From NCBI GenBank assembly GCA_003971905.1, contig RSEE01000025.1, forward strand, positions 708,467-772,466: 64,000 nucleotides of DNA, given 5' to 3'. The translations under genes and the position numbers were made by a program. Source of the stretch: Moniliella sp. 'wahieum'. Lineage: Eukaryota > Basidiomycota > Moniliellomycetes > Moniliellales > Moniliellaceae. Below the pieces are notes generated by a model. That model saw only the letters and a program-made list of their open reading frames with translations. It was not told where the DNA came from and searched no databases. Of the stretch, positions 4,000-54,290 are shown piece by piece (within the stretch, counting starts at the first letter, position 1; every line of letters starts with the position of its first letter).

Positions 4000-5280
4000 A
4001 TGAAGGACGCCACACGCAAGATCATTGGAGAGGGTTAGTACTCGCACCCATGCTTCTCCTCCTCTTCCCTCGGTCCTCCTCCTCCCCCAGCGCCTAACCA
4101 CTCCCCCCCCCCCCCAGTCGCCGTCTTTGCCGTGTCGCAGGTGGCGTTCTACTACGCCTTCCGCTACATCCTCTCCTCCCTCGACCCCAACCGCTCCCAG
4201 CGCGCCGAAAGCAAGAAGGCCGCCAACGCCAAGCTCCAGCGCCTCGGCCTCGCCTCGGGCGCCTCCGAGCTGCTCAACCTCACCGAGCACGAGGAGCAGA
4301 TCTCCTCCGAGCTCATCCTCCCCGACGACATCCGCGAGACGTTTGCCGACATTGGTGGCCTCGAACCCATCATCTCCTCGCTCCGTGAGAGCGTCATCGC
4401 GCCCCTCTGCTTGCCCCAGCTGTTCCACCCCGACACTGCGGCCGATGGCTCAGGGGTTGGCCTCCTCGGCGCGCCGAAGGGCGTCTTGCTCTACGGGCCG
4501 CCCACAGGCAAGACCATGCTGGCCAAGGCGCTCGCGAAGGAATCGGGTGCCACATTCATCAACATGCGTGTCTCCACGCTGACCAACAAGTGGTTTGGTG
4601 AATCCAACAAGCTCGTGGCTGCTTTGTTTAGCTTGGCACACAAGCTCCAGCCCAGTATCATCTTTATTGACGAAATCGACTCGTTTCTCCGCGAGCGCGG
4701 CTCCAGCGACCACGAGGTCACGTCGATGATGAAGGCCGAGTTCATGTCCCTCTGGGACGGTCTCACCTCGGGATCGGACCGCATCATGGTGCTCGGCGCG
4801 ACCAACCGGCCGAACGACATTGACAGTGCCATCCTACGAAGAATGCCGAAACGCTACGCGGTCCCACTGCCCGATGCTACCCAGCGACGCAAGATTCTCA
4901 ACCTGCTCCTGTCGCCCGACAACCACGTCTCCCTCGACAAGCAGTTCAACATGGACGCCTTGGTGGACCATACCGAAGGCATGAGCGGATCGGACTTGAA
5001 GGAACTGTGTCGGAACGCGGCCATGGTACCCGTGCGCGAGTTTATGCAATCGGCCGCGGGCAAACAACATTTAGAGGCAACCGTGCGCGCCAACCGAGAC
5101 CGTCACACTACTCCCACCCACGCACCGTCTCCGTCCAACCCCGCCTCGTCCAGCCGCATCTTGACGCGTGCCCTGCGCAACTCGGACTTTTACGTCAACG
5201 ATTCGGCTGCTACGCCACTGCACACACAGATGAGGGTACGCACAGACTCATCGGTGCCGCTAACGGAAGGGCTGGACTAA
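4000..5280 (+). CDS. MSP1: Msp1/ATAD1-type AAA ATPase (membrane-protein extractase)
   Basis: Outer mitochondrial/peroxisomal membrane AAA translocase that extracts mislocalised tail-anchored proteins. Exon 1 (4000-4033, MKDATRKIIGE) splices across 4034-4117 (branch CTAAC at 4094, C14 tract before CAG) into exon 2. The frame also stays open upstream of 4000, so an earlier start is possible. An N-terminal membrane segment (VFAVSQVAFYYAFRYIL) is followed by the linker, then the AAA domain. Walker A lies near residue 137, Walker B is PSIIFIDEID near 195, the sensor region is LGATNRPNDIDSAILRRMPKRY, and the helical lid is EGMSGSDLKELCRNAAM. Oddity: Walker A reads GPPTGKT, one residue shorter than GPPGTGKT. 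Unlike most neighbours, the rest of this gene is a single open frame. Confidence 0.9.
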
Positions 5281-6581
5281 GTGCCGCCCGAGTCGTCGAG
5301 CCAATGACGGCAGTACGTTTAAGGGTGGGCGGTTAGTCGTGGTCTGTCCCCTGTTCCATATGGGAATGCCGAGACATGGGTAGTTTCTCAGGAGGACAAC
5401 TCACCGGTTCCCGATCTGGGTATTGCGCATAGATCGCATGTGGACAGAAGGTTGTGTCCACAGGCCGGGGCTGAGCATTTATTCCATTTGCCGGGCAATG
5501 GCTGGCCTCGTTGACAATCGTTTGGAACCCCCCGTTGAAGGGATGGGAATGAATGAGAGGCCACTGGAATGGAATCTGGACATCATGTCCTGCCATCGAC
5601 ATCTTCGTCTACCAGGACACATCCACAGGCCTGTATAACTCGGACTAGCGCCTCACTAGTTATAAACAAACAAGCACCACGTACACACGCCAGTGATGTA
5701 GCCCCAACACTATACCACCTGCATCAAGGGCCACGGTCTCGCAGCTGTTTTGTCCTTCATCTTTGCCCCCCTGATCTTGTCCTGCCTGCACCCACTGCTG
5801 GCCCAATTCAATGACAAGCAGGGCTCTTGTCCGACTGTAGGGGGAGGGGGGCGGCCACGACAAAAGGGCGCGGCGACCTCTTTTACGCAATCAGCTTTTG
5901 CCCCCCCTCTGAAGCACTGCCGCCCCACCACTATCACTTCTCAAGCTCTCTCGAATCGGCACTCTTTCTCTCCTCGTTTTCTTGGATTGGGAGCGGGGAG
6001 TCCTTTGCGAGGCGCACTTCATTCGTCCAAATCATTAACAACGCGGCAGATCGTGGTCGCAGGAAAAGAAAGAGAGAGCGCACAGGCGCTTCTCTTAGCA
6101 ATTCGAACAAAACAGCAATAACATGTAACAGGGCAAGGTGGGGGGGAGAATATGGATCAGTGACGGTCCTACTCAACCACAACCCGAGAGACAACGAAAA
6201 ATAGTAGGATCATCGTCACACTCGGAGATCTATGTGGTGTAGAAGAAGGGGGTTCAAATCAACAATGCAATGGGTAGCAAACGAGAGTGGGGGAGAGAAA
6301 AAGAAAGGTAAATAGGGGATGTCAGGTATACACAATGAAGTAGATAGTAGGGCTTGGGGTAAAAGGTGTCGTCGTCAGGCCACAAAACCACATCTTATGC
6401 ACCATACTCCCATCATCGAATAGGAACCCAAAGGCGCGGATCTTGAGGCTCGAGACGGGAGACGGTTCTCTGTACTTGATTCTTCCTGTTGCTTCGCGTA
6501 TGCAGCCCTCGCCTGTTTTCCTCTTCCAGGCAGACACCTGGAATTGAAGGGCTTACCTTGTGCCCATTTTGCAGCAAAACG
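5281..6581. other. Intergenic, no gene seen
   Basis: This holds the 3' flanks of MSP1 and of the convergent GH79-like gene. Short open frames on both strands show no family signature. Confidence 0.5.
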
Positions 6582-15384: not shown

Positions 15385-15392
15385 TATTTATA
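15385..15392 (+). promoter_or_regulatory. TATA box (TATTTATA)
   Basis: It lies 99 nt upstream of the ATG of the secreted repeat protein and is followed by a CT-rich leader. This is a strong core promoter by fungal standards. Confidence 0.65.
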
Positions 15393-15490: not shown

Positions 15491-16676
15491 ATGCGCACTA
15501 CCGCCTTCTTCACCGCTCTTGTGGCCCTTGCCATGACTGCCCGTACGTATATTTGTCCACACACATCATACCAAACATGGACTCTTCCCGAACCCTCACT
15601 GACACACTGTATCCTCAGAGGCCATGCCGCCCACCGTTCCCGGAACGAGCCTTGCGCCTCCCCTGAACCATTCCTCTCCTCCTCCGCATCACCCTCAGCA
15701 CCGTGCTCTGGACGGGGACAACCAACCGAACAAGGTACCGGTTCATTTCCCCGCGCACAAGCCGGGGCCTAAGCGAGGCCAGGCCCACCCCCCTCCGCCT
15801 CCTGCCAAGTCTGGTGGCCCGCACCCGGAGAAAGGCCACGGTCAGGGGCCTGTGTCCAAGCGCGAAGAGGACCACCCTGCGCCTCCCAAGTCTGGTCTCC
15901 CGCCCAAGTCTATCCCGCCCCCCAGGATGGACATGGCGAACCGCCTGCGTCCAAGCGCGAAGAGGGCCACCGTGCGCCTCCCAAGTCGGGTCTCCCGCCC
16001 AAGTCGAGCCCTCCTCCGGCTCCCAAGGGCAGCCAGCCCCCCGAGCATGGGCATGTCGAACAGCCTGCGTCCAAGCGCGAAGAGGACCACCATGCTCCTC
16101 CCAAATCGGGTCTCCCGCCCAAGTCGAGCCCTCCTCCGGCTCCCAAGGGCAGCCAGCCCCCCGAGCATGGGCATGTCGAACAGCCTGCGTCCAAGCGCGA
16201 AGAGGACCACCATGCTCCTCCCAAATCGGGTCTCCCGCCCAAGTCGAGCCCTCCTCCGGCTCCCAAGGGCAGCCAGCCCCCGAGCATGGGCATGTCGAAC
16301 AGCCTGCGTCCAAGCGCGAAGAGGACCACCATGCTCCTCCCAAGTCGGGTCTCCCGCCCAAGTCGAGCCCTCCTCCGGCTCCCAAGGGCAGCCAGCCCCC
16401 GAGCATGGGCATGTCGAACAGCCTGCGTCCAAGCGCGAAGAGGGCCACCGTGCGCCTCCCAAGTCGGGTCTCCCGCCCAAGTCGAGCCCTCCTCCGGCTC
16501 CCAAGGGCAGCCAGCCCCCCAAGCATGGGCATGGCGAACAGCCTGTGTCCAAGCGCGACGAGGACCAGCGTGCTCCGCCGCCCAAATCGAGTCTTCCGCC
16601 TCAGGCGAGCGTCCCCTTCGACGACAAACCGGCTCCCCAGCAGCCTAAGAAGAATTCGTCGCACGCTGCAGCTTAG
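15491..16676 (+). CDS. Secreted tandem-repeat protein with Lys-Arg sites (KEP/repellent type)
   Basis: Exon 1 (15491-15542) encodes a signal peptide, MRTTAFFTALVALAMTAQA. Intron 15543-15618 (GTACGT...CTCAG) splices in phase to exon 2. The mature part is Pro/His/Lys/Glu-rich and built from 40-residue (120-nt) repeats of the form EEDHHAPPKSGLPPK...GSQPPEHGHVEQPAS followed by KR. Lys-Arg codons (AAG CGC) begin at 15858, 15953, 16073, 16193, 16312, 16431 and 16551, with another KR at 15771. Regular dibasic sites between near-identical units are the hallmark of Kex2-processed repeat proteins, such as Rep1 of Ustilago maydis. The product may therefore be cut into ~38-residue peptides. Two repeat intervals are 119 nt and one early interval is 95 nt. 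Each reflects one C missing from a C-run (near 15920, 16281 and 16397); together the three restore frame to the TAG at 16674. The peptide function is unknown. Confidence 0.8.
15941..16560 (+). repeat. 120-bp tandem repeats
   Basis: Five near-identical units of 120 or 119 bp plus diverged flanking copies, differing by a few substitutions (AAATCGG/AAGTCGG, GACCACC/GGCCACC) and by C-run length. They lie inside the secreted repeat protein. Confidence 0.95.
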
Positions 16677-17841: not shown

Positions 17842-19081
17842 ATGGCGCTGCGCCTCTCCCTCGTCAGCGTCCTCGCGCTCTTTGCCGCCCTCCTGGCCCT
17901 TGTGGCCGCACCCGCTTCCGCCTTCAGGCTAGGTTTGCCCTGGGGCGCCAACAATGCCTGGGCCCACGAGCTGACATCCAACAGCCACATTGGGCTCTAC
18001 CACACCTGGCAAGGCCGCCACATCTCCAGCATCTCCAAAGCCGGTGTGCAGTGGGTCCCAACCCGCTGGGGCAACAAGAAGGGCAAGAACTGGAAGTCCA
18101 TCAAGAAGCTCTTCCCCAAGTACCGCTACCCTTACGTCCTTGCCTACAACGAGCCTGACATCGCCACCCAGTCCGACTACACTCCCAAGCAGGCCGCGGT
18201 TGCTTTCCAAAAGGAACTGGCGCCCCTGCGTCAATACGGGACCAAGATCTCCTCCCTCAGATTTGCTATGATGTTGACTGGCTCGGAAAGTTCACCAAGC
18301 AGCTCAAGAAGCGTGGCGGGCACTACGACTTATTGCTGCCCACTGTATGTTGTCCCTCTCGCTTTTGTTCTCCCCTCCGTCTTATATATGCGCTGCTACC
18401 TTGTGGACACTGACGTTTTTCCTGCTAGACTATGGTTCGTGGAAGTCGATTTCCAAGCTGCGCAAATACGTCAAGAAGATCCACAACAAGTACCCGTCCA
18501 AAGACATCTTCATCACCGAGTACGGCGTCACATCGTCCTCCAACCCCTCGGCCGCCCAAGCCAAGCAGTTCATGGTGGACGCGACCAATTTCTTTGCCTC
18601 CACGGGCTACGTCAAGGCCGCCTTCCCCTTTGGCATGTTCTCTACGCCCCCGGACAATTTTGGTTCACGCCAAAACGCAGCGTTCCAATCGGGTGGCAGC
18701 TTGCGCAGCGTAGGTAAGTACTGGAAACATTACAGCAACTCTCGTCGCTCGATCGAATCGGGTGCGCTGTCCGGGAGCATGCTGCGTCGCCATGAGCGGA
18801 TGCTCAAGCGTCTGGAGCAGCCCGACCCCAATGACGAGGAATTGTGGGACAACTATACCAACCAGACCGATTGCGATGAGATTTGCCAGAAGCGCGATGA
18901 GTGGCTGGCTAAGCTCAGTGACGACCCGGAGGAGGACGACGTTGAGGACGACGCGGAGGACGATGACGATGACGATGATGATGACAATGTCGGTATTGAC
19001 ATTGACAGTTTCACTGAAGAGGACGCCAATGCTTGGCCTACCGAGGAGGATGAGGCTGAAGAGGACGAGGACGACGAGTGA
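17842..19081 (+). CDS. Secreted GH128-like glucanase (Asl1-type) with acidic tail
   Basis: Glycosyl-hydrolase catalytic-core protein of the GH128/Asl1 family (beta-1,3-glucanases acting on fungal walls). The signal peptide is MALRLSLVSVLALFAALLA, ending in PASA. Motifs: LGLPWGANN, YNEPDI (acid/base region), SSPQIC, HYYGSWKS and FITEYGVTSSSNP (nucleophile Glu). Intron 18345-18428 (GTATGT...CTAG) lies inside HYYGSW. Two single-base losses break the frame: one C near 18257 (restores SSPQICYDVDWL) and one T near 18333 (restores YDLFAAHYYGSW). Beyond the ~250-residue domain is an unusual extension with an Asp/Glu-rich tail (about 18925-19078) and a Cys pair in NQTDCDEICQKRDEW. Stop TGA at 19079. 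Confidence 0.85.
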
Positions 19082-22672: not shown

Positions 22673-25644
22673 ATGTGTGACTCCCAGGCGGCAAACCCGC
22701 CTTCTTCGTATATACCCGTCTCCCGAGCAGGCGAGGCATCCAGATTGGATGCGGGGACATCCTGCCATGCGCTGCCCATGCCCATGCCTCTGGGTTTGAC
22801 TGCGTCCAACGCGCATGCATTCGACAACCCCATCACGCTTGCACTGCAGATGTCCGGCATGTATGCCCAACAGCAGCTGCAACAAAGTCAGCTCCAATAC
22901 CAACCACACCACTATCCTCGCCAGCTGGATCCACAACCACAGTCCAACATCCAACTGTGGGCTCCTGAATTCGCCGGCGTGAATGCTGGTCTCGACGTAT
23001 CATCCATCCTCACCAGCTACCATCATCGCGGCGACCTCAGTCTTCCCACACCCCTTACGTCAACCATATCCGGATGCGGCCGTGCCCGTCGGCATGGCCT
23101 CGAACTTTGTTTCCACTCCTCTTGCTCCCAACTTTTCTCTCCCAGCCCACAGCTCCCCAACTTTGTTCCATCTCCTATCTCCGTACCTGCTTCCACCCCA
23201 GGCCTTTCCACGTCACCAGCGCTTTCCCTTGCAACCCCCCCACCATCTGCATCTCCCCGGAACGGTTGGTCCTTTCCCCAACCGTCTCCCCCAGTGCACC
23301 CGCATCCCAACCCCTATGTTCAAGGCCCACTCTTGCCGGATTCTAGTGGTTTCGCGATTAGCTCTAGCCTGGATGATATGCAGTGCCGCCGCACTGGGCG
23401 CACTTGTTTCCTCATCCTCGAGTGTCCCCCTTGCCAAGACACCAGATGCCGCAACACCACCACCACCACTAGGTCCAGCGAGCACGGTCGACCAGGTTCC
23501 GTCGGCATATAAGGATGATCCTGCAAGGGCGGCTGCATGCTCAGCCGCTGGTTCGCAGACCTCATCACTGTCTGCCATGCAGACGAGTGGGTCCCACTCT
23601 CGTTCCGTGGATTCGACAATGTTCGATTCGGAGCGACGACGAAACTCCAGTGCTCTGTCCACTGGGTTTCCTGCCTTTTTCGACAAGCACATGCGCCAGC
23701 AACTCGAGAAACGGGGCCAAGTCGGCTTGTCCCCGCAGCAGCTGCAGACCTTGGCGCAGCAGCAGCAGCGCTTATATCATGCGTGGTGCCTAAGGCATAC
23801 GCAACAACTACATGCACTGCAGCAACAGCATGCACAGAAGTCGCAACCGCAGGGACAACCGCAGGCGCAATCACAGGCGCAACAGCAGGCGCAATCAAAC
23901 GGGCAACAGCAGGCGCCACCACAGGCACAAACGAAACTGCAAAGGATATCGCGAACCAAACGGCGAAACAAGCCGGAAACGCAACCAGAAACTCGGCACG
24001 CCTCGCCACCGAAGCAGCATAACCAGCAGCAGCAAGCACCTCCTGTGTCACTAGCCCCTGATTGTGGTGATTCCGCCGCATCTGGTCCTATTTCCTCTCC
24101 TCCAAACGTCTCCCCCAAAGCTTCTCCACCCAAGCGCCTGCACCAGGTGCTTTGTGATGCGTTGGATCGTCTTGCTGCCGTTGAAGTGAATGACGAGATG
24201 AGACGCGCGGGAAAGTTTTGGATTCCATTTCGTTGTCAAACTCCGTGTCGTTACTGCATCTGGTTCAACAACCAAGGATGCTACGACATATGCGCACTTG
24301 GCTGCAAGACCTCCACCCGATCGACGGAACGAGTGAGTTGGAGCGGTATCCACGTGTTTCACAACAACTACCAGCTATACTGGAAAGGATGGTTCGCACT
24401 GTCATCCAAGCGCCTTCGGTTCCGGATTGGGTTTCTCAGGATATCGCCGGCCTTCAAATAACGGGGTGAAAGGCATGCGGCCTGCCCTGAACAAGAAATG
24501 TGAGTTCCCCTCCTGTTGTGTGTTCTGTGTGAGAGGGTCCCGTACGGGATGGCCGCCGTGGCCGTCGGTTATTGATGGCTGCGGCCGCAGTTTTGGAACG
24601 AGAAATAAATGTGCTCGTCAAATTGGGACGAGGGATCAAAATTCTAATTCGTTGTACTGCCCCCGTGCCAGGTCCTCTCAGACACGTGGCACACTGCCCC
24701 AATGCGGAGCGCATACTGACTTGGCCTGCGTCGCCATTTTGCCTGTGTGATTTGTGCAGTTGACGACCAACTGTCCCACTTGCTGAATGCGTGGGACGAT
24801 GCCCACCCTGACGCAACCACCACCACCTCCAAATCTCGTTCGCCGCAAGCATCCCTCGATGTGCCCGCTACATCTTCGGTGTCCACTAAGCGCAAGCGGA
24901 GCGACCCTCCTGCGGTAACCAGCGCCAAGAAACCCAAGCTCCCGGAGATTGTGACGAAGCCCGTTTCCCCCAGCTCTCGGGTGGCGGCCCCCAAGCTTCC
25001 CCTCGCTCCCAAGAAGGGCGCCACCAATGCACCGTGTCCAGTGCAGAGGGAGTAAACGGAAAAGGACTGTATCACCACTATCACCACCGCCTTATCCTCA
25101 GCGCAGCCAGTGCAACTTGACGGCGATGGACAAGCGTGCGCTTGCCGAGGACGAGAAGCGCCAGCTCTCCGCTGCCCGGCAGGCTCTGGTCAAGAAGCAT
25201 CGCCAGGCTCGTTTGTCTAAGGACATAAAGGAGCCCACCAAGGTGACAGGGAGGAAAGAGGCGGCTCCTTCAGGGGAAGCAGTTGCAAAACCCAATCCCT
25301 CCACCCAGCCTCGTCCCTCTCGGGTGGGCCCGGCGGGGTCGAGGCAGGATCGTCCAAGCCTAAACCAGTTACCCTCCTTCCGCAAGGTCTCACCTACCGG
25401 GGCACAGAAGGCGCCTGGCATGATGGGGATTGGGTTTCTGGACGCACTTCTCCGGCACACCAAGGAATCTGCCGAGTCCCCTTTGCCACCTCCCAAGGAA
25501 CCTTCTCGCACTTCCAATGCGAAGGATCCCACTCCTCCCGAAACCAAGACAAGGGAAGCTTGTCCCAAGAGGGAAGTTGTCCCAAGAGGGAAGCTTGTCC
25601 CAAGAGGGAAGCTTGTCCCAAGAGGGAAGCTTGTCCCAAGTTAG
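22673..25644 (+). CDS. Q-rich, probably nuclear regulatory protein (frame-broken)
   Basis: Coding signal runs through several frames. It starts with an N-terminal MCDSQAANPPSSYIPVSRAG and a Pro/Ser-rich region with short poly-Gln. A long Gln/Ala tract follows (23740-23935), then a basic patch (SRTKRRNKPET). Next is a helical segment, RMLRHMRTWLQDLHPIDG, from another frame at 24270-24330. Intron about 24500-24759 (GTGAGT...TTTGTGCAG) splices to DDQLSHLLNAWDDAHPD, followed by a Lys/Pro-rich C-terminus with nuclear-localisation-like STKRKRS and TSAKKPK. Frame changes occur near 23030, 23130, 23360, 24230 and 25035. The helical segment before the NLS could be a TFIIS-N/LW-type domain, but that is weak. 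It ends at an 18-bp minisatellite. Confidence 0.45.
25554..25640 (+). repeat. 18-bp minisatellite (GGAAGCTTGTCCCAAGAG)
   Basis: About five units. The second is 17 bp because one C is missing, which shifts the encoded frame. In the last units the reading is Leu-Val-Pro-Arg-Gly-Lys repeated. Confidence 0.9.
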
Positions 25645-25974: not shown

Positions 25975-26411
25975 GTGTGGAGGAGGTTGTGGAGCCAAGG
26001 AGAGAGAGGAGAGGGCGGAGAGAGGAAGGGGCAGGAGAGCGAGAAGGGGGAATTGGAGGAAGGTGAATTGGAAGAGGGGGAATTGGAAGAGTCTGATACC
26101 GACGGATTCCTCCCTTCACTCTCGGATCCTCTTACCCCTCCGACTCTCCCAGGACCAGAAGAAGATCCAGCACCTTTGACCCCGACTCGCCCAAGCCGGA
26201 GGCAGATCCACCTTTGACTCCCACTCGCCCAAGCCCAGAGGCAGACCCAGCACCTTTGACCCCGACTCGCCCAGGACCAGAAGAAGACCCAACGCATATG
26301 CAAGGCGTCACACTGGACTTACGCACCCCATCCAAGGCGGCAATACCGTCCTCAACGGTCCCTTCATCGCCACCGCCTCTTCGGGTTATGGCACACCCCT
26401 GTCGTGCTTGA
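25975..26411 (+). CDS. Acidic/Pro-rich coding segment, possible 3' exon of the upstream gene
   Basis: Starts just after a CTTTCAG acceptor-like site (about 25903-25909). The frame reads EKGELEEGELEEGELEES, then Asp/Pro-rich text with imperfect repeats PLTPTRPS/PEADPAPLTPTRP (26115-26290). A frame change near 26215 is needed to continue to 26411. Composition suits a disordered tail of the preceding regulatory protein. I cannot identify it independently. Confidence 0.3.
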
Positions 26412-37043: not shown

Positions 37044-39248
37044 TTACGCCTTCTTGGCTGCCTCGGCTTGCTCCTCCGCAATCTCTTGAATCTCATCATC
37101 AATCGCAATCTCCTCATCCAGGTCCTCCACTTGCAGGTTGGGGCGATGAATAAAGTCGGTAATGAGCTTCTTGTACGGGTGGGGCACGCCTTGTGGGTTG
37201 TTCCTGCGCACAAACGGAAGTACTACTCGGCATAGACATTGCCGTCGGCACGGCCGAAGGGCGAGTTGATAATGTGGTCCGACAACACAAAGCTGTCGTC
37301 AACGGCACTGCAAATCCACGCACCGTCTTGCACAGCGCTGACACACTCGCCTGGACCGTATCCAACTGCGTGGGCGCCAGCCAGCCCGAACGCAAAAGTG
37401 CGCCGCCTTCTCCTCCATCTGCCACAGACCGTACAGCTCGCCACCGTCGTCAACGTCGCCCGCACCCCATCCTTGTCCGCAGACGGCGGCAGTTGCTTGA
37501 TGGCATTGTGGAACTGACGGAAAATGTAGTTCGAGGTGTGGACCGAGGCGGCAACAAAGGTAGCCTGCGAACACGCTTCCAATGACGCTTGCTTGTTCAG
37601 CCCCTTCTTTTGTGCGGCCACCACATCGTCCGCCGCCTTCTTGACCAGCATGGCCGAAGCAGCGTCAAAGCCCTTTTGGATTCCCTCGAGCGAGTCGAGA
37701 TCGGCATCGCTGGCTTTCGAGCTCAAGTTCTTCTCCCGTACGTCCGAGCCGAGGTAGGTGAGTGCCTCCGACATGGGCTTGCCCTTGACCGCGTCCACAT
37801 AGGCTTGCACCAAGAACCGACCCGATTGGAGCGCCAGAATCGTATTGTCGCCTTCCCACGTGCAGTGCACCGCAAAGTCAGAGAACATGTTGGCCAGACC
37901 ATTGTACGCCGAGTACCCGTGTCCTCCGAGCGATTGCCGCGACTTTTCAATCGCGTCGAGCGTGGCCCAGGTGCAGAACGCCTTGAGACCAGCCGAGGTT
38001 GAGTGCGTCTGCTTCAGCATGTCCACGTGCGTTCGAGGTTAGGGTCACCAGGCTCCAGCGCCTCCAGCGCCTTGCTCGTCTCGTCGTACATGGCCGTCAT
38101 CTCGAGCGCAGTAAAGCCAAATGCGACCGCCTGCGCCAAGAGCGGCAGCAAACGCCGTTGGTGAATCGGGTAGTCAAGCAACTGCGTCTCCAACTTTTGC
38201 GATGGGTCCGACTTGAATTGCCGTCGCACCGCCGCATACCGCACCGAAATGGTAAGTGCCTTCTTGGCCGTGTTGGCACTGTCGGCGACCATGGCGGTAC
38301 GACCACCGAGCAGAGCACCGTACGTCAGCTGCGCCAGTGGCGGCTCCCGCACCTCGCCTTCGCGAGTAACCTGGGTGTGCTTCATCAGCATGTAGGCACG
38401 TGGGATGCGCACATTGGTGAATTGAATGTAACCATTGTCAATTCCGTCGCGGCCCATCTTTTTACCAATGTCACCAATGTTGATGCCGGGAAGCAGGTCA
38501 AACGTCTGCGTGTTGCGCAGCGGAACAATAAACGTCTTGACACCATAGTCCTTGCCATCCACAATCAGACGCGCAAACACAGAGCAGTGCGTCGCCGTTT
38601 GGGCCGCACCGCCAATCCACCACTTGGTCGCACCCAGGTGCGGGGTATGGATGACAAACTCATCGGTTTTGGGGTCAAACGTGGCGCGCGTCTCGAGACC
38701 GGCAACGTTCGAGCCGTGCTGCAGCTCAGTCATGCCAAAGCATCCAACCATGCCCTGGAGCGTAATGACACCCTTGTCAATCCAGTATAGAACTGGTTGG
38801 CAGTGGCGCCCGAGCGGATGGCACCCAGGAACAGGCCATAGTGCACGCCAAACCGGGTCCAGAAGCCAGGGTCAAAGCCCGATGAGCTCCATGCGCCTTT
38901 GGAAGTCCTCGACCGACTCGTTGGTAACGTAGTGCACAAGAGAAGTGATGCGCTTCATGGTCAACTCGCGCAGCTGCTCCTTGCTCAAGTCGTAGAAGTT
39001 GCCCATGTAGAAGAGGGGTTGCGCTCGAGCTCGAGCATTTGTTTTTCCTTGAGCAGGAGCGCTGCTTCGGTGCCATGCTGGGCAATGGCCAGCTGGAGCG
39101 CGAAGATGCGGATTGGTCAGCGGGCACGCGGGTTGGGGGGGGGGGGGGGGGGGAAGAAGGCACATACAGCGCGGACGTTGAACGGCGGGTTGGCACGCTC
39201 TTGCATCATGGTGGTGACGCTCTGCTTGTCGATCCACTTGGTCGTCAT
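37044..39248 (-). CDS. POX1: Acyl-CoA oxidase
   Basis: Peroxisomal beta-oxidation flavoenzyme (acyl-CoA to trans-2-enoyl-CoA with H2O2). The start at 39248 gives [20 protein letters not shown]. Intron 39093-39167 (GTATGT...CTCCAG) contains a 19-C tract. Motifs: [30 protein letters not shown] (FAD/substrate domain), [40 protein letters not shown] and [21 protein letters not shown], then [19 protein letters not shown]. The C-terminus is [19 protein letters not shown] and ends AAKKA, not a classic SKL-type signal. Frames slip near 38770, 38020, 37440, 37370 and 37205. Length (~690 aa) suits the family. Confidence 0.9.
39135..39153 (-). repeat. 19-nt C homopolymer inside acyl-CoA oxidase intron
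   Basis: On the coding strand the tract is C19, between the GTATGT donor and the CTCCAG acceptor. Confidence 0.85.
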
Positions 39249-45443: not shown

Positions 45444-48425
45444 GTTCCCCCTTTCGTGTAGTCTACCGACCGCGTCTCTTCTTCCTCTGCTCTCCTCCCC
45501 CTCGTGCGAGACTCTACAGTGGAGGTGGTAGAGCGCTCCGCCTGTGAGCCGCTAGACTCTAGCTGCCGCCCCTACAGCTCACATGCCCCCCAACCCATGG
45601 CCATTTCTCTTGTGCCGCTATTTCTACGAATCCTTTTCTCCCTCGTTGGCTTGTGCTTCTGTCACGTTATTCGGATGTCATCTTCTACACCAACTCCAAA
45701 GCCATGCATCTCTTGTTCTTGCCCAACATGTCACATGTTGCCAATGCAGCTCCGTCCATTCCACTGCAGGACCAAAGGCGTTCGGCTGGAAAGGTTCGAG
45801 CCCTCGGTTGGCTGGACTGGATACTAGGTACTGGAAGCGGGCAGTTGCATCTTATAGGGGCTCAGGCGCTCAGGCTGAGCTATGACACTGACGGGATGAC
45901 TTGGACGACCGAAGGAGAATGCGTTGCGTGGGAGGAGGCCTTGCCGCCGCGAAACGGGGGCCAATGTACCTGGCCCGTTAAGCGACTCGATTGGTTGGTC
46001 CGGTAGTTAGGCCTTAGGGGTCAGTATGTCAGTCGCTGACCGATCAGAATGCGTTGAGCGTTAGTGAGTACGTGAACGTTGTACACATCAACGCGCCAAC
46101 GTTCACGTTAAGCTTAACGTTAACGCTAAGCCTTAGTAGCGCAGCAGAGAGAAGAGCCGCGGCTTCCCAGGGACTTGAAGCTTGAAGCTGACACCCAGGG
46201 GGTTGGATGGAGTAGGTCGATTAAATGGTTGACCGAATGAACCAGGGGCACCAGCAGGGACACTCGAGGAAGGGGCAGGGGAAGCCGACGCTAAGTACCG
46301 TTACACGTTAAACGTTAAACTTGAACGTTGAAGACGTTGAATCTTGAAGCTTGAAGCTCATCTGGGCAAGATGGCCAGATAGAAGATGTCCTTGGAAACG
46401 GTGCAAAACAGGGAGGGAGCATCGAGCACACGGCTATGTTGGTGCCGCACGTGCTGGCCCAGAAGGCGGTGTACGGAATCCAAGGATGTGCCCTCCATCA
46501 TGCATCGCTAGCACACTAGTCACTAGTCCTAGTCACTAGTCACGTCACCAGCTGGAGCCACTAGTCACTACTAACAAGTCCCGACTCTGGACCGAGATCG
46601 TCGATTCGATGACATGATGACATCTGAGATCCTCCGGTCTCTGAGATACGTACTCTCTAACGCTCCGAGGCGCCACGCAGCAGCCGATGCAATCAGTTAT
46701 TAATCATACTCGGTACAGAGCGTGAGGCTTGAGGTACTGAGTAACTCAACCCTGTACGTGAGTACACTGAGTACAGAGTCCTCGCAGTCTTAGTACGTTT
46801 AGTACTCACTTACTGATACCAGCTGCGATCAAACTGGCGGTCTGGCGCAACTTGCACATCTGCACCACGGGGCCATTGTTCAATCTACGCGGCGTTCCCG
46901 CACTGCGCCCTGCTTCAGAAGACCCAGGCTGTCAAAGGCAGCGCACTCATCCTATTCACTTTTCCTAACGCTTCATAACGATGGGACGTTGGAGTGGATT
47001 GGAACGCCTCGTGCCCAACGCCGACAGCCTCCATTGCCGGTTTCATACCCTCTTCAGCTTGATCGAATCCCTGTTGCTCCGGGCCACCCTACCTTACATG
47101 TTACAAGCCTTGATGTGCCCCGTACCGGTGACGGATGGTGGGGTGGCTGATACTCAAAACGGAATGTACTGAATCGATAGTCGATAGTCCTTGGTAAATT
47201 TGAAAACTCAATAAGCGAATCCAGTGCCCCGTGCTGAGTGGCTGAGCCTTGCTGCGCCGTTGCGGGCATGTTGAGCAGCGGGGCTGCAGCGGCTGAGTGC
47301 TGCCTGCGCCTGCTGCGCCCGCTCTGGAACCTGGGGTGTCCAGTGTGTGGCTTGAAAAATCCCGAAGATAGGGGCGGGAACGCCCATTGTACTACGTGCA
47401 ACGTTCAACGTAGTGTTCGTTCGTCGAACGTCGTTGAGGTTGAACTTGATGCGTTCTCATCGACCATCGACCATCGACCATCGACCATCGACCATCGACC
47501 ATCGACCATCGACCATCGACCATCGACCATCGACCATCGATTCTCCATGGTGATGTTGATGCTGCAGATGCCGGGGGCATCTGGTGCATCGTTCTTTGAT
47601 GCTGGGATGGGGGGGCCTGACGCATCCTCAGGCTCAGGCCTCATGAGGACCAAGTCTATTCGAATACTCACAGACTTTATTACTGTTGCTAAACAGACTC
47701 ATACGCCATCGCTCTAAGACCCAATCGCGCTCAGTCGAACAGCGATCTTACCGTCTTACCCGTGGGCGGAGATCCAAGAACCTCCTCTGGTTTTCGGGGC
47801 CGACGGGTCGAAGTGTATCCCAGTGTTGGGAACGTTGAGCGGGGAGTACATGGTGCAGACAAATACAAAATACATACTGTGGGTGCGCCCTGGTGCATGG
47901 TGTGGCCTGGTGCACGGTGCACCGGGAGGCTGGCTGGCAGCAGCCATCGGCGCATTGTAGCGCACATCATGCATGATCGTCATGCACCATGCCGTCGCAC
48001 CTGTGGCGTTAAGCTTTAGAGCGAAGGCTTAGCGCTGTAGCGCTGTAACCCTGCCTCCTTGCATATCCAGCGCACTGGCCCCGCGCCGTTGCTCCCACCA
48101 CTGAGCCCTTGCGCTCTCCCTCCGGATTGCGTGCAGCAGCGCATCCGGCACCAGCGCACACTGCCCCGCGCCCATGCACGGCGCCACCCGCAGGCGAGTG
48201 CCTGGCCACCCGTCACAGACTGCAGTCCCTCGCAGCTAGCACTATCCGCCATCAGTGCATCCGCCAGCGCAAGCCCCGCGCCCGGCCCTTTCCTGCCCCG
48301 ATCCGACACTACACGCGTGTCCTCCGGCAGCAGCCTCCAACCAACCCTCTCCCTCCTCCATCCAGTGCCCCCCGCTGCCCCCCCCCCCCCACCGCTCCCA
48401 TCCCCTGCTCCCGCCACCACCAGCG
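45444..48425. other. Repeat-rich spacer, no gene seen
   Basis: About 3 kb. It contains AACGTT/TTAACG palindromes (46072-46340), GAAGCTT words, CACTAGT heptamers (46513-46570), a (CATCGAC)n array at 47458-47540 and ATGCATCATG/GGTGCA words (47890-47990). The GC-rich 48050-48425 stretch is the permease leader, with a C13 tract at 48378-48390. Confidence 0.6.
47458..47540 (+). repeat. (CATCGAC)n heptanucleotide tandem array
   Basis: Just under twelve perfect 7-bp units. This is a second heptamer-based array, with different sequence from the one at 3814. Confidence 0.95.

Positions 48426-52441: not shown

Positions 52442-54290
<1,849 letters not shown>

Follow-up and report, generated by a model that had tools for sequence, protein, structure and literature searches.

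The forward strand of the DNA stretch analyzed here (64,000 nucleotides, the window) carries a gene at 15491..16676 that is probably a Kex2-processed repeat protein (KEP) gene new in sequence, present as one locus per haplotype, whose breaks in reading frame would be assembly errors. A sequence-only reading of the window had proposed the KEP architecture. The signal-peptide-like start, the repeats, the Lys-Arg sites, the absence of inner dibasic sites, and a kexin gene in the same genome agree with that proposal, but the frame is broken as assembled.

Anatomy of the gene and its repeat units

A TATA-like element, TATTTATA at 15385..15392, ends 99 nt 5' of the ATG at 15491, just where a strong TATA box had been noted, and it is also present in a second copy of the gene on contig C139 (L026 4175). 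Exon 1 (15491..15542) begins with MRTTAFFTALVALAMTA, which resembles a signal peptide. Residues 5 to 15 form a hydrophobic core with a mean Kyte-Doolittle value of 2.3, and the A-x-A type end (TAQA) of MRTTAFFTALVALAMTA(QA) needs exon 2 for its completion. The signal peptide of the earlier reading is retained as a prediction. The intron of that reading was found at 15543..15618 (76 nt, GTACGT...CTCAG); it is predicted, called by eye, and in phase 1, with the single base of the split codon at the end of exon 1. Exon 2 opens with (Q)AMPPTVPG..., and its first part (15619..15770) is a propeptide-like stretch rich in Pro and His that extends to the first Lys-Arg. Eight Lys-Arg nodes and the units between them occupy 15771..16556, in pieces read in three frames. 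The C-terminal tail (16557..16676) contains one Lys-Lys at 16647 and finishes with the residues SSHAAA and a stop codon ending at 16676.

A tandem-repeat scan detected an array at 15917-16576 with a period of 120 nt, 5.5 copies, and 95% matches, and the presence of a tandem repeat in the gene is certainly beyond chance. Seven AAGCGC nodes about 120 nt apart had been described, and all seven are present, at 15858, 15953, 16073, 16193, 16312, 16431, and 16551. Their spacings are 95, 120, 120, 119, 119, and 120 nt, so that one departs from the described value, and an eighth Lys-Arg with the codons AAGCGA was added at 15771 as the first node. The five spacings of 119 to 120 nt each accommodate Lys-Arg and a unit of some 38 residues, which bears out the near-identical 38-residue units described before. 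No other dibasic site occurs inside the units in the node frame, the single Lys-Lys being that of the tail. The residues following Lys-Arg were EE, GQ, EK, HE, or DE across the node contexts of both copies. Other tandem arrays in the window are located at 25552-25640 (18-nt unit, 5.0 copies), 26140-26291 (42-nt unit, 3.7 copies), and 47458-47540 (perfect CATCGAC, 11.9 copies).

The second copy and retention of the Lys-Arg nodes

A DNA-level search of the assembly (69.5 Mb, 223 contigs) revealed the gene at one other place, C139:94199-95124, with 81% identity over the aligned part. When 80 kb of C139 (60,000-139,900) was compared with the window, 19 blocks of more than 400 bits matched window 1-54,634. 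The identities of these blocks ranged from 77 to 97%, with 13 of the 19 at 90% or more, and one 456-nt block was inverted; beyond 132,644, no block above 400 bits was found in the part compared, up to 139,900. Window 1-54634 and C139:78799-132644 are collinear, with about 4% substitutions (2,045 over 52,512 covered window bases) plus many indels. Judged from this alignment, the C139 stretch probably represents the second haplotype, the strain being heterozygous or dikaryotic; a large duplication could also explain it. Because only one kexin P domain was found among the matches listed, doubling does not extend to the whole assembly.

The two copies have the TATA-like element, the intron, the N-terminal part, and the tail in common. 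In the C139 copy, the Lys-Arg nodes number six and are 87, 132, 93, 94, and 96 nt apart; its units are fewer and mostly shorter than those of the window, and copies differing in unit number and length in this way represent a small natural experiment on array change. About 184 nt in the 3' flank of the C139 copy (L026 ~5413-5596) are missing from the window and could be a mobile-element footprint.

An earlier count of Lys-Arg at 14 of 14 junctions was circular, since the junctions had been chosen by the AAGCG motif itself, and a count from a Gly-His landmark was made for this reason. Lys-Arg followed the landmark in 7/7 window units and 5/5 C139 units (12/12), the landmark being defined by two patterns, one of which was widened after the C139 unit at 4761 had been seen. 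One Lys-Arg per unit is not rare by chance, and the weight therefore rests on its retention in diverged units of both copies. A secreted proline-rich structural protein of the cell-wall type, which stays uncut and in which Lys-Arg is just part of the unit, would suit the composition of the unit (11 Pro in 38 residues; grand average of hydropathy [GRAVY], -1.54) and the finding that 10% of shuffled 40-residue units hold a Lys-Arg. Such a protein is unlikely, because Lys-Arg stands at all of the landmarks despite changed neighbors, as in EVKRHES of a C139 unit, and because the flank of the first node, PKRG, has little in common with those of the other nodes. We prefer a precursor that is cut at these nodes.

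The differences between the two copies were of the coding type in the Lys-Arg frame. Across exon 1, the N-terminal part, and the tail, 15 of 23 differences fell on third positions (P = 0.0017), and the pooled count, which covered every aligned coding column with a few bases around each break set aside, was 44/87 (P = 0.0007). A narrower count, which skipped the final 8 bases of exon 1, positions 15867-15870, and the greater part of the array, gave 13/18 and 15/26 on third positions. Several observations count against the KEP reading. The array shows a weak excess (29/64, P = 0.03) and is ambiguous to align, and third-position differences were few in the array piece 16286-16394 (1/6) and in a unit stretch compared separately (2/8, with 6 replacements). 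GC content by codon position does not pick out the node frame, since its GC3 of 0.69 lies between those of the other two frames, 0.77 and 0.61; four conserved gene pieces showed values of 0.63 to 0.76. In addition, exon 1 of the C139 copy is longer by one base before the donor, and a later shift near 4543 restores the frame, so that copy would not necessarily have the same signal and propeptide.

Frame breaks and the error rate of the assembly

No single frame contains all eight nodes. Their phases relative to frame 15603 are, in order, 0, 0, 2, 2, 2, 1, 0, and 0, corresponding to three frame shifts, and inspection by eye placed the breaks on or close to runs of C at ~15930, 16280, and 16399. 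The Lys-Arg repeat frame originally described is therefore interrupted three times as assembled. The sole frame open throughout is 15603-16676 (357 aa), in which the Lys-Arg repeat is read at both ends only; it remains open, though its middle misses the repeat, because the three shifts sum back to the first frame. All three forward frames are free of stops in the array. Open frames also occur on the antisense strand and are tentatively put down to composition.

We compared the window with C139 in plus-strand alignment blocks that scored 700 bits or more and counted 817 indels over 52,512 covered window bases, 456 of which were of one base. Conserved domains of acyl-CoA oxidase, AAA, MFS, HSP70, glycosyl hydrolase, and eIF4E (2,658 nt) contained 14 frame-shifting indels between the copies, with zero in the MFS stretch. 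Three of the 14 affect the outermost base of a stretch, and the count mainly measures the C139 side, as the domain frames were picked as open in the window copy. The dynein AAA_6 domain provided a count free of this selection. A profile search found it in differing frames, in 5 pieces on C2 (C2:1288815-1289826) and 4 pieces on C50 (C50:39344-40359), giving 4 breaks in 1,012 nt and 3 breaks in 1,016 nt, respectively; apart from a single gap of 38 nt on C50, all of the pieces overlap. The resulting density on these two contigs is 3 to 4 breaks per kb. Applied to the 1,058 nt of exon 2, this dynein rate predicts 3.7 breaks, compared with the 3 observed. Furthermore, the S8 and P domains of the kexin gene on C165 are in different frames, and the HSP70-like gene of the window shows two frame changes relative to an intact HSP70 from the same genome. 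Because the assembly error rate predicts about as many, the three breaks need no biological cause, and on this comparison they look like assembly errors.

One-base indels are dense in conserved genes, at window 4483-5076, 18440-18721, 38041-38790, and 53042-53584 and in the dynein genes of C2 and C50, and the assembly appears unpolished. It is unfit for calling frame breaks or pseudogenes, and caution is called for with any finding from this genome that depends on reading frame. The HSP70-like gene piece at window 52970-53599 has 97 matching pieces in the genome, which would represent many HSP70-like genes or broken copies. For the acyl-CoA oxidase, the nearest PDB sequence was 5ys9, acyl-coenzyme A oxidase 3, which we take to be a Yarrowia protein. 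Nothing in the window matched Rfam. In the genome, at least 14 5.8S rRNA matches (C21, C33, C2, and others) were found among the 39 of 1,571 candidates scored, and these copies are not all alike, as their scores span 148.6 to 120.3 bits. Some of the C33 rDNA is given as N. Matches to dynein AAA_6 were confined to C2 and C50, and a radial-spoke search gave none, although its control gave none either; together these results are weak evidence against a flagellated fungus.

If the frame breaks were real, the locus could be a decayed gene, to which the three breaks of the window copy and the approximately four shifts of the C139 copy (by reading) would correspond. We regard decay as improbable, since dynein, kexin, and acyl-CoA oxidase have a similar break density, and the third-position excess and the conservation of the promoter element and tail also speak against it. 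Real, compensated frameshifts under selection were attractive since both copies are open to one tail; they were dropped because conserved domains hold frame-shifting indels of 1 to 2 bases and dynein is likewise broken on C2 and C50.

At six of the seven AAGCGC nodes, each of the three frames encodes a dibasic site; the node TCCAAGCGCGAAGAGG (window 15858-16567) reads SKREE, PSAKR, and VQARRG. With these sites and the stop-free frames, a slip in a C run would still give Kex2-bounded peptides, though with a very different, Arg-rich composition. The gene could thus be a frame-tolerant peptide precursor whose alleles diversify by frameshift, to which we give a very slim chance. We rejected the three-frame dibasic node as a design, as 8% of synonymous recodings equal it. 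The frame open as assembled might also itself be real, its middle yielding Arg-rich units that are again bounded by dibasic sites. The stop-free 357 aa that extend from exon 2 into the tail, the C139 copy open to a matching tail, and the three-frame dibasic nodes would fit this proposal, which nevertheless seems hardly credible. The coincidence of open dibasic frames is weak, because both other frames were stop-free in 15% of synonymous unit recodings and stop-free with dibasic sites in 8%, and the breaks are accounted for by assembly error. We therefore return to a single Lys-Arg frame with assembly errors as the preferred reading.

Predicted processing and comparison with known systems

A kexin gene is located on C165 (Pfam Peptidase_S8, 4.1e-43; P_proprotein, 1e-27) and was the only P-domain match among the matches listed; the organism thus has the Kex2-type protease that the KEP class implies. 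In the pathway described for KEP precursors (PMC6339444), cleavage behind Lys-Arg takes place in the Golgi and is followed by Kex1 trimming and secretion. We infer that the window gene is expressed as such a peptide precursor. Its signal peptide would direct the precursor into the endoplasmic reticulum, Golgi kexin would cleave after every Lys-Arg, and a Kex1-type carboxypeptidase would remove the Lys-Arg. The exported product would be a hydrophilic peptide some 38 residues long, in several copies, which reads EEDHHAPPKSGLPPKSSPPPAPKGSQPPEHGHVEQPAS when it comes from the intact unit. The intact unit of 38 residues has a calculated mass of 3,939 and holds 4 His, 4 Glu, and 3 Lys besides its 11 Pro, and the peptide would be extended, disordered, and extracellular or wall associated. 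It is perhaps a signal, or perhaps binds metal via His. The release of several proline-rich peptide copies, as proposed in the sequence-only reading, is accordingly kept as a prediction that the units, nodes, and kexin fit, but that the broken frame of the assembly does not.

None of the three window frames matched Pfam, nor did the C139 frame; PDB sequences gave no match for the one frame searched, and the genome held no relative besides the C139 copy and weak matches, in line with the earlier reading, which recognized no described family in the repeat. The weak matches (E ≥ 0.26) were rejected as relatives; those on C155, C2, C32, and C121 lack Lys-Arg-spaced units, and a fifth place is on C19. 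Four repeat words did not occur in the texts of the KEP papers, which is a weak result because KEP sequences are listed in supplementary tables, and a pattern search of the genome was uninformative (220 forward and 222 reverse; controls, 125 and 117). A literature search on proline-rich Kex2 repeats of basidiomycetes likewise turned up nothing. The sequence looks new, but genes of this kind form a known and very diverse class that is common among fungi.

Ustiloxin-type (UstYa/DUF3328) ribosomal peptides have Kex2-cut repeats in common with the window gene. UstYa was absent among the 14 window open reading frames (at least 170 aa, outside the repeat gene) scanned with Pfam, and a genome profile search gave no match to it, which is weak since the control also gave none. 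Repellents are hydrophobic or amphipathic peptides that coat the wall, and its very hydrophilic unit (GRAVY, -1.54) would set the window gene apart from Ustilago maydis Rep1, a repellent precursor. The peptide length is similar, 37 aa in Rep1 (PMC6339444) versus 38 aa here, with several peptides per precursor. Ascomycete alpha-type pheromone precursors share with the gene an acidic residue after Lys-Arg at most nodes. However, descriptions of these precursors place X-Ala or X-Pro steps behind Lys-Arg and give peptide lengths of 9 to 24 aa (PMC6339444), whereas the window gene has no Ste13-type X-Ala/X-Pro after Lys-Arg and a longer unit of 38 aa. Kinship to Rep1 or pheromones is not supported.

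In a survey of 1,461 strains, 7,878 KEPs were detected in 1,345 strains, with 2,560 stand-alone and an average of about 5 per strain in Ascomycota and Basidiomycota (PMC7329392). KEP-derived peptides were reported in several mushrooms, and deletion of Coprinopsis kep genes was described as having no phenotype; Coprinopsis KEPs were also expressed in Pichia pastoris in that study (Vogt 2022, PMC9769878). The window gene adds one more apparent orphan to a fungal secreted-peptide class of mostly unknown functions. The published definition comprises a signal peptide and at least three repeats of 8 to 100 aa between Kex2 sites (Umemura 2020, PMC7329392; Le Marquer 2019, PMC6339444). Such repeats are present unit by unit, not in one continuous assembled frame, and the gene would fit the definition provided that one accepts its signal peptide and that the frame breaks are erroneous. 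It is like the described KEPs (PMC6339444, PMC7329392, and PMC9769878) in its signal-peptide-like N terminus and at least three Lys-Arg-bounded repeats.
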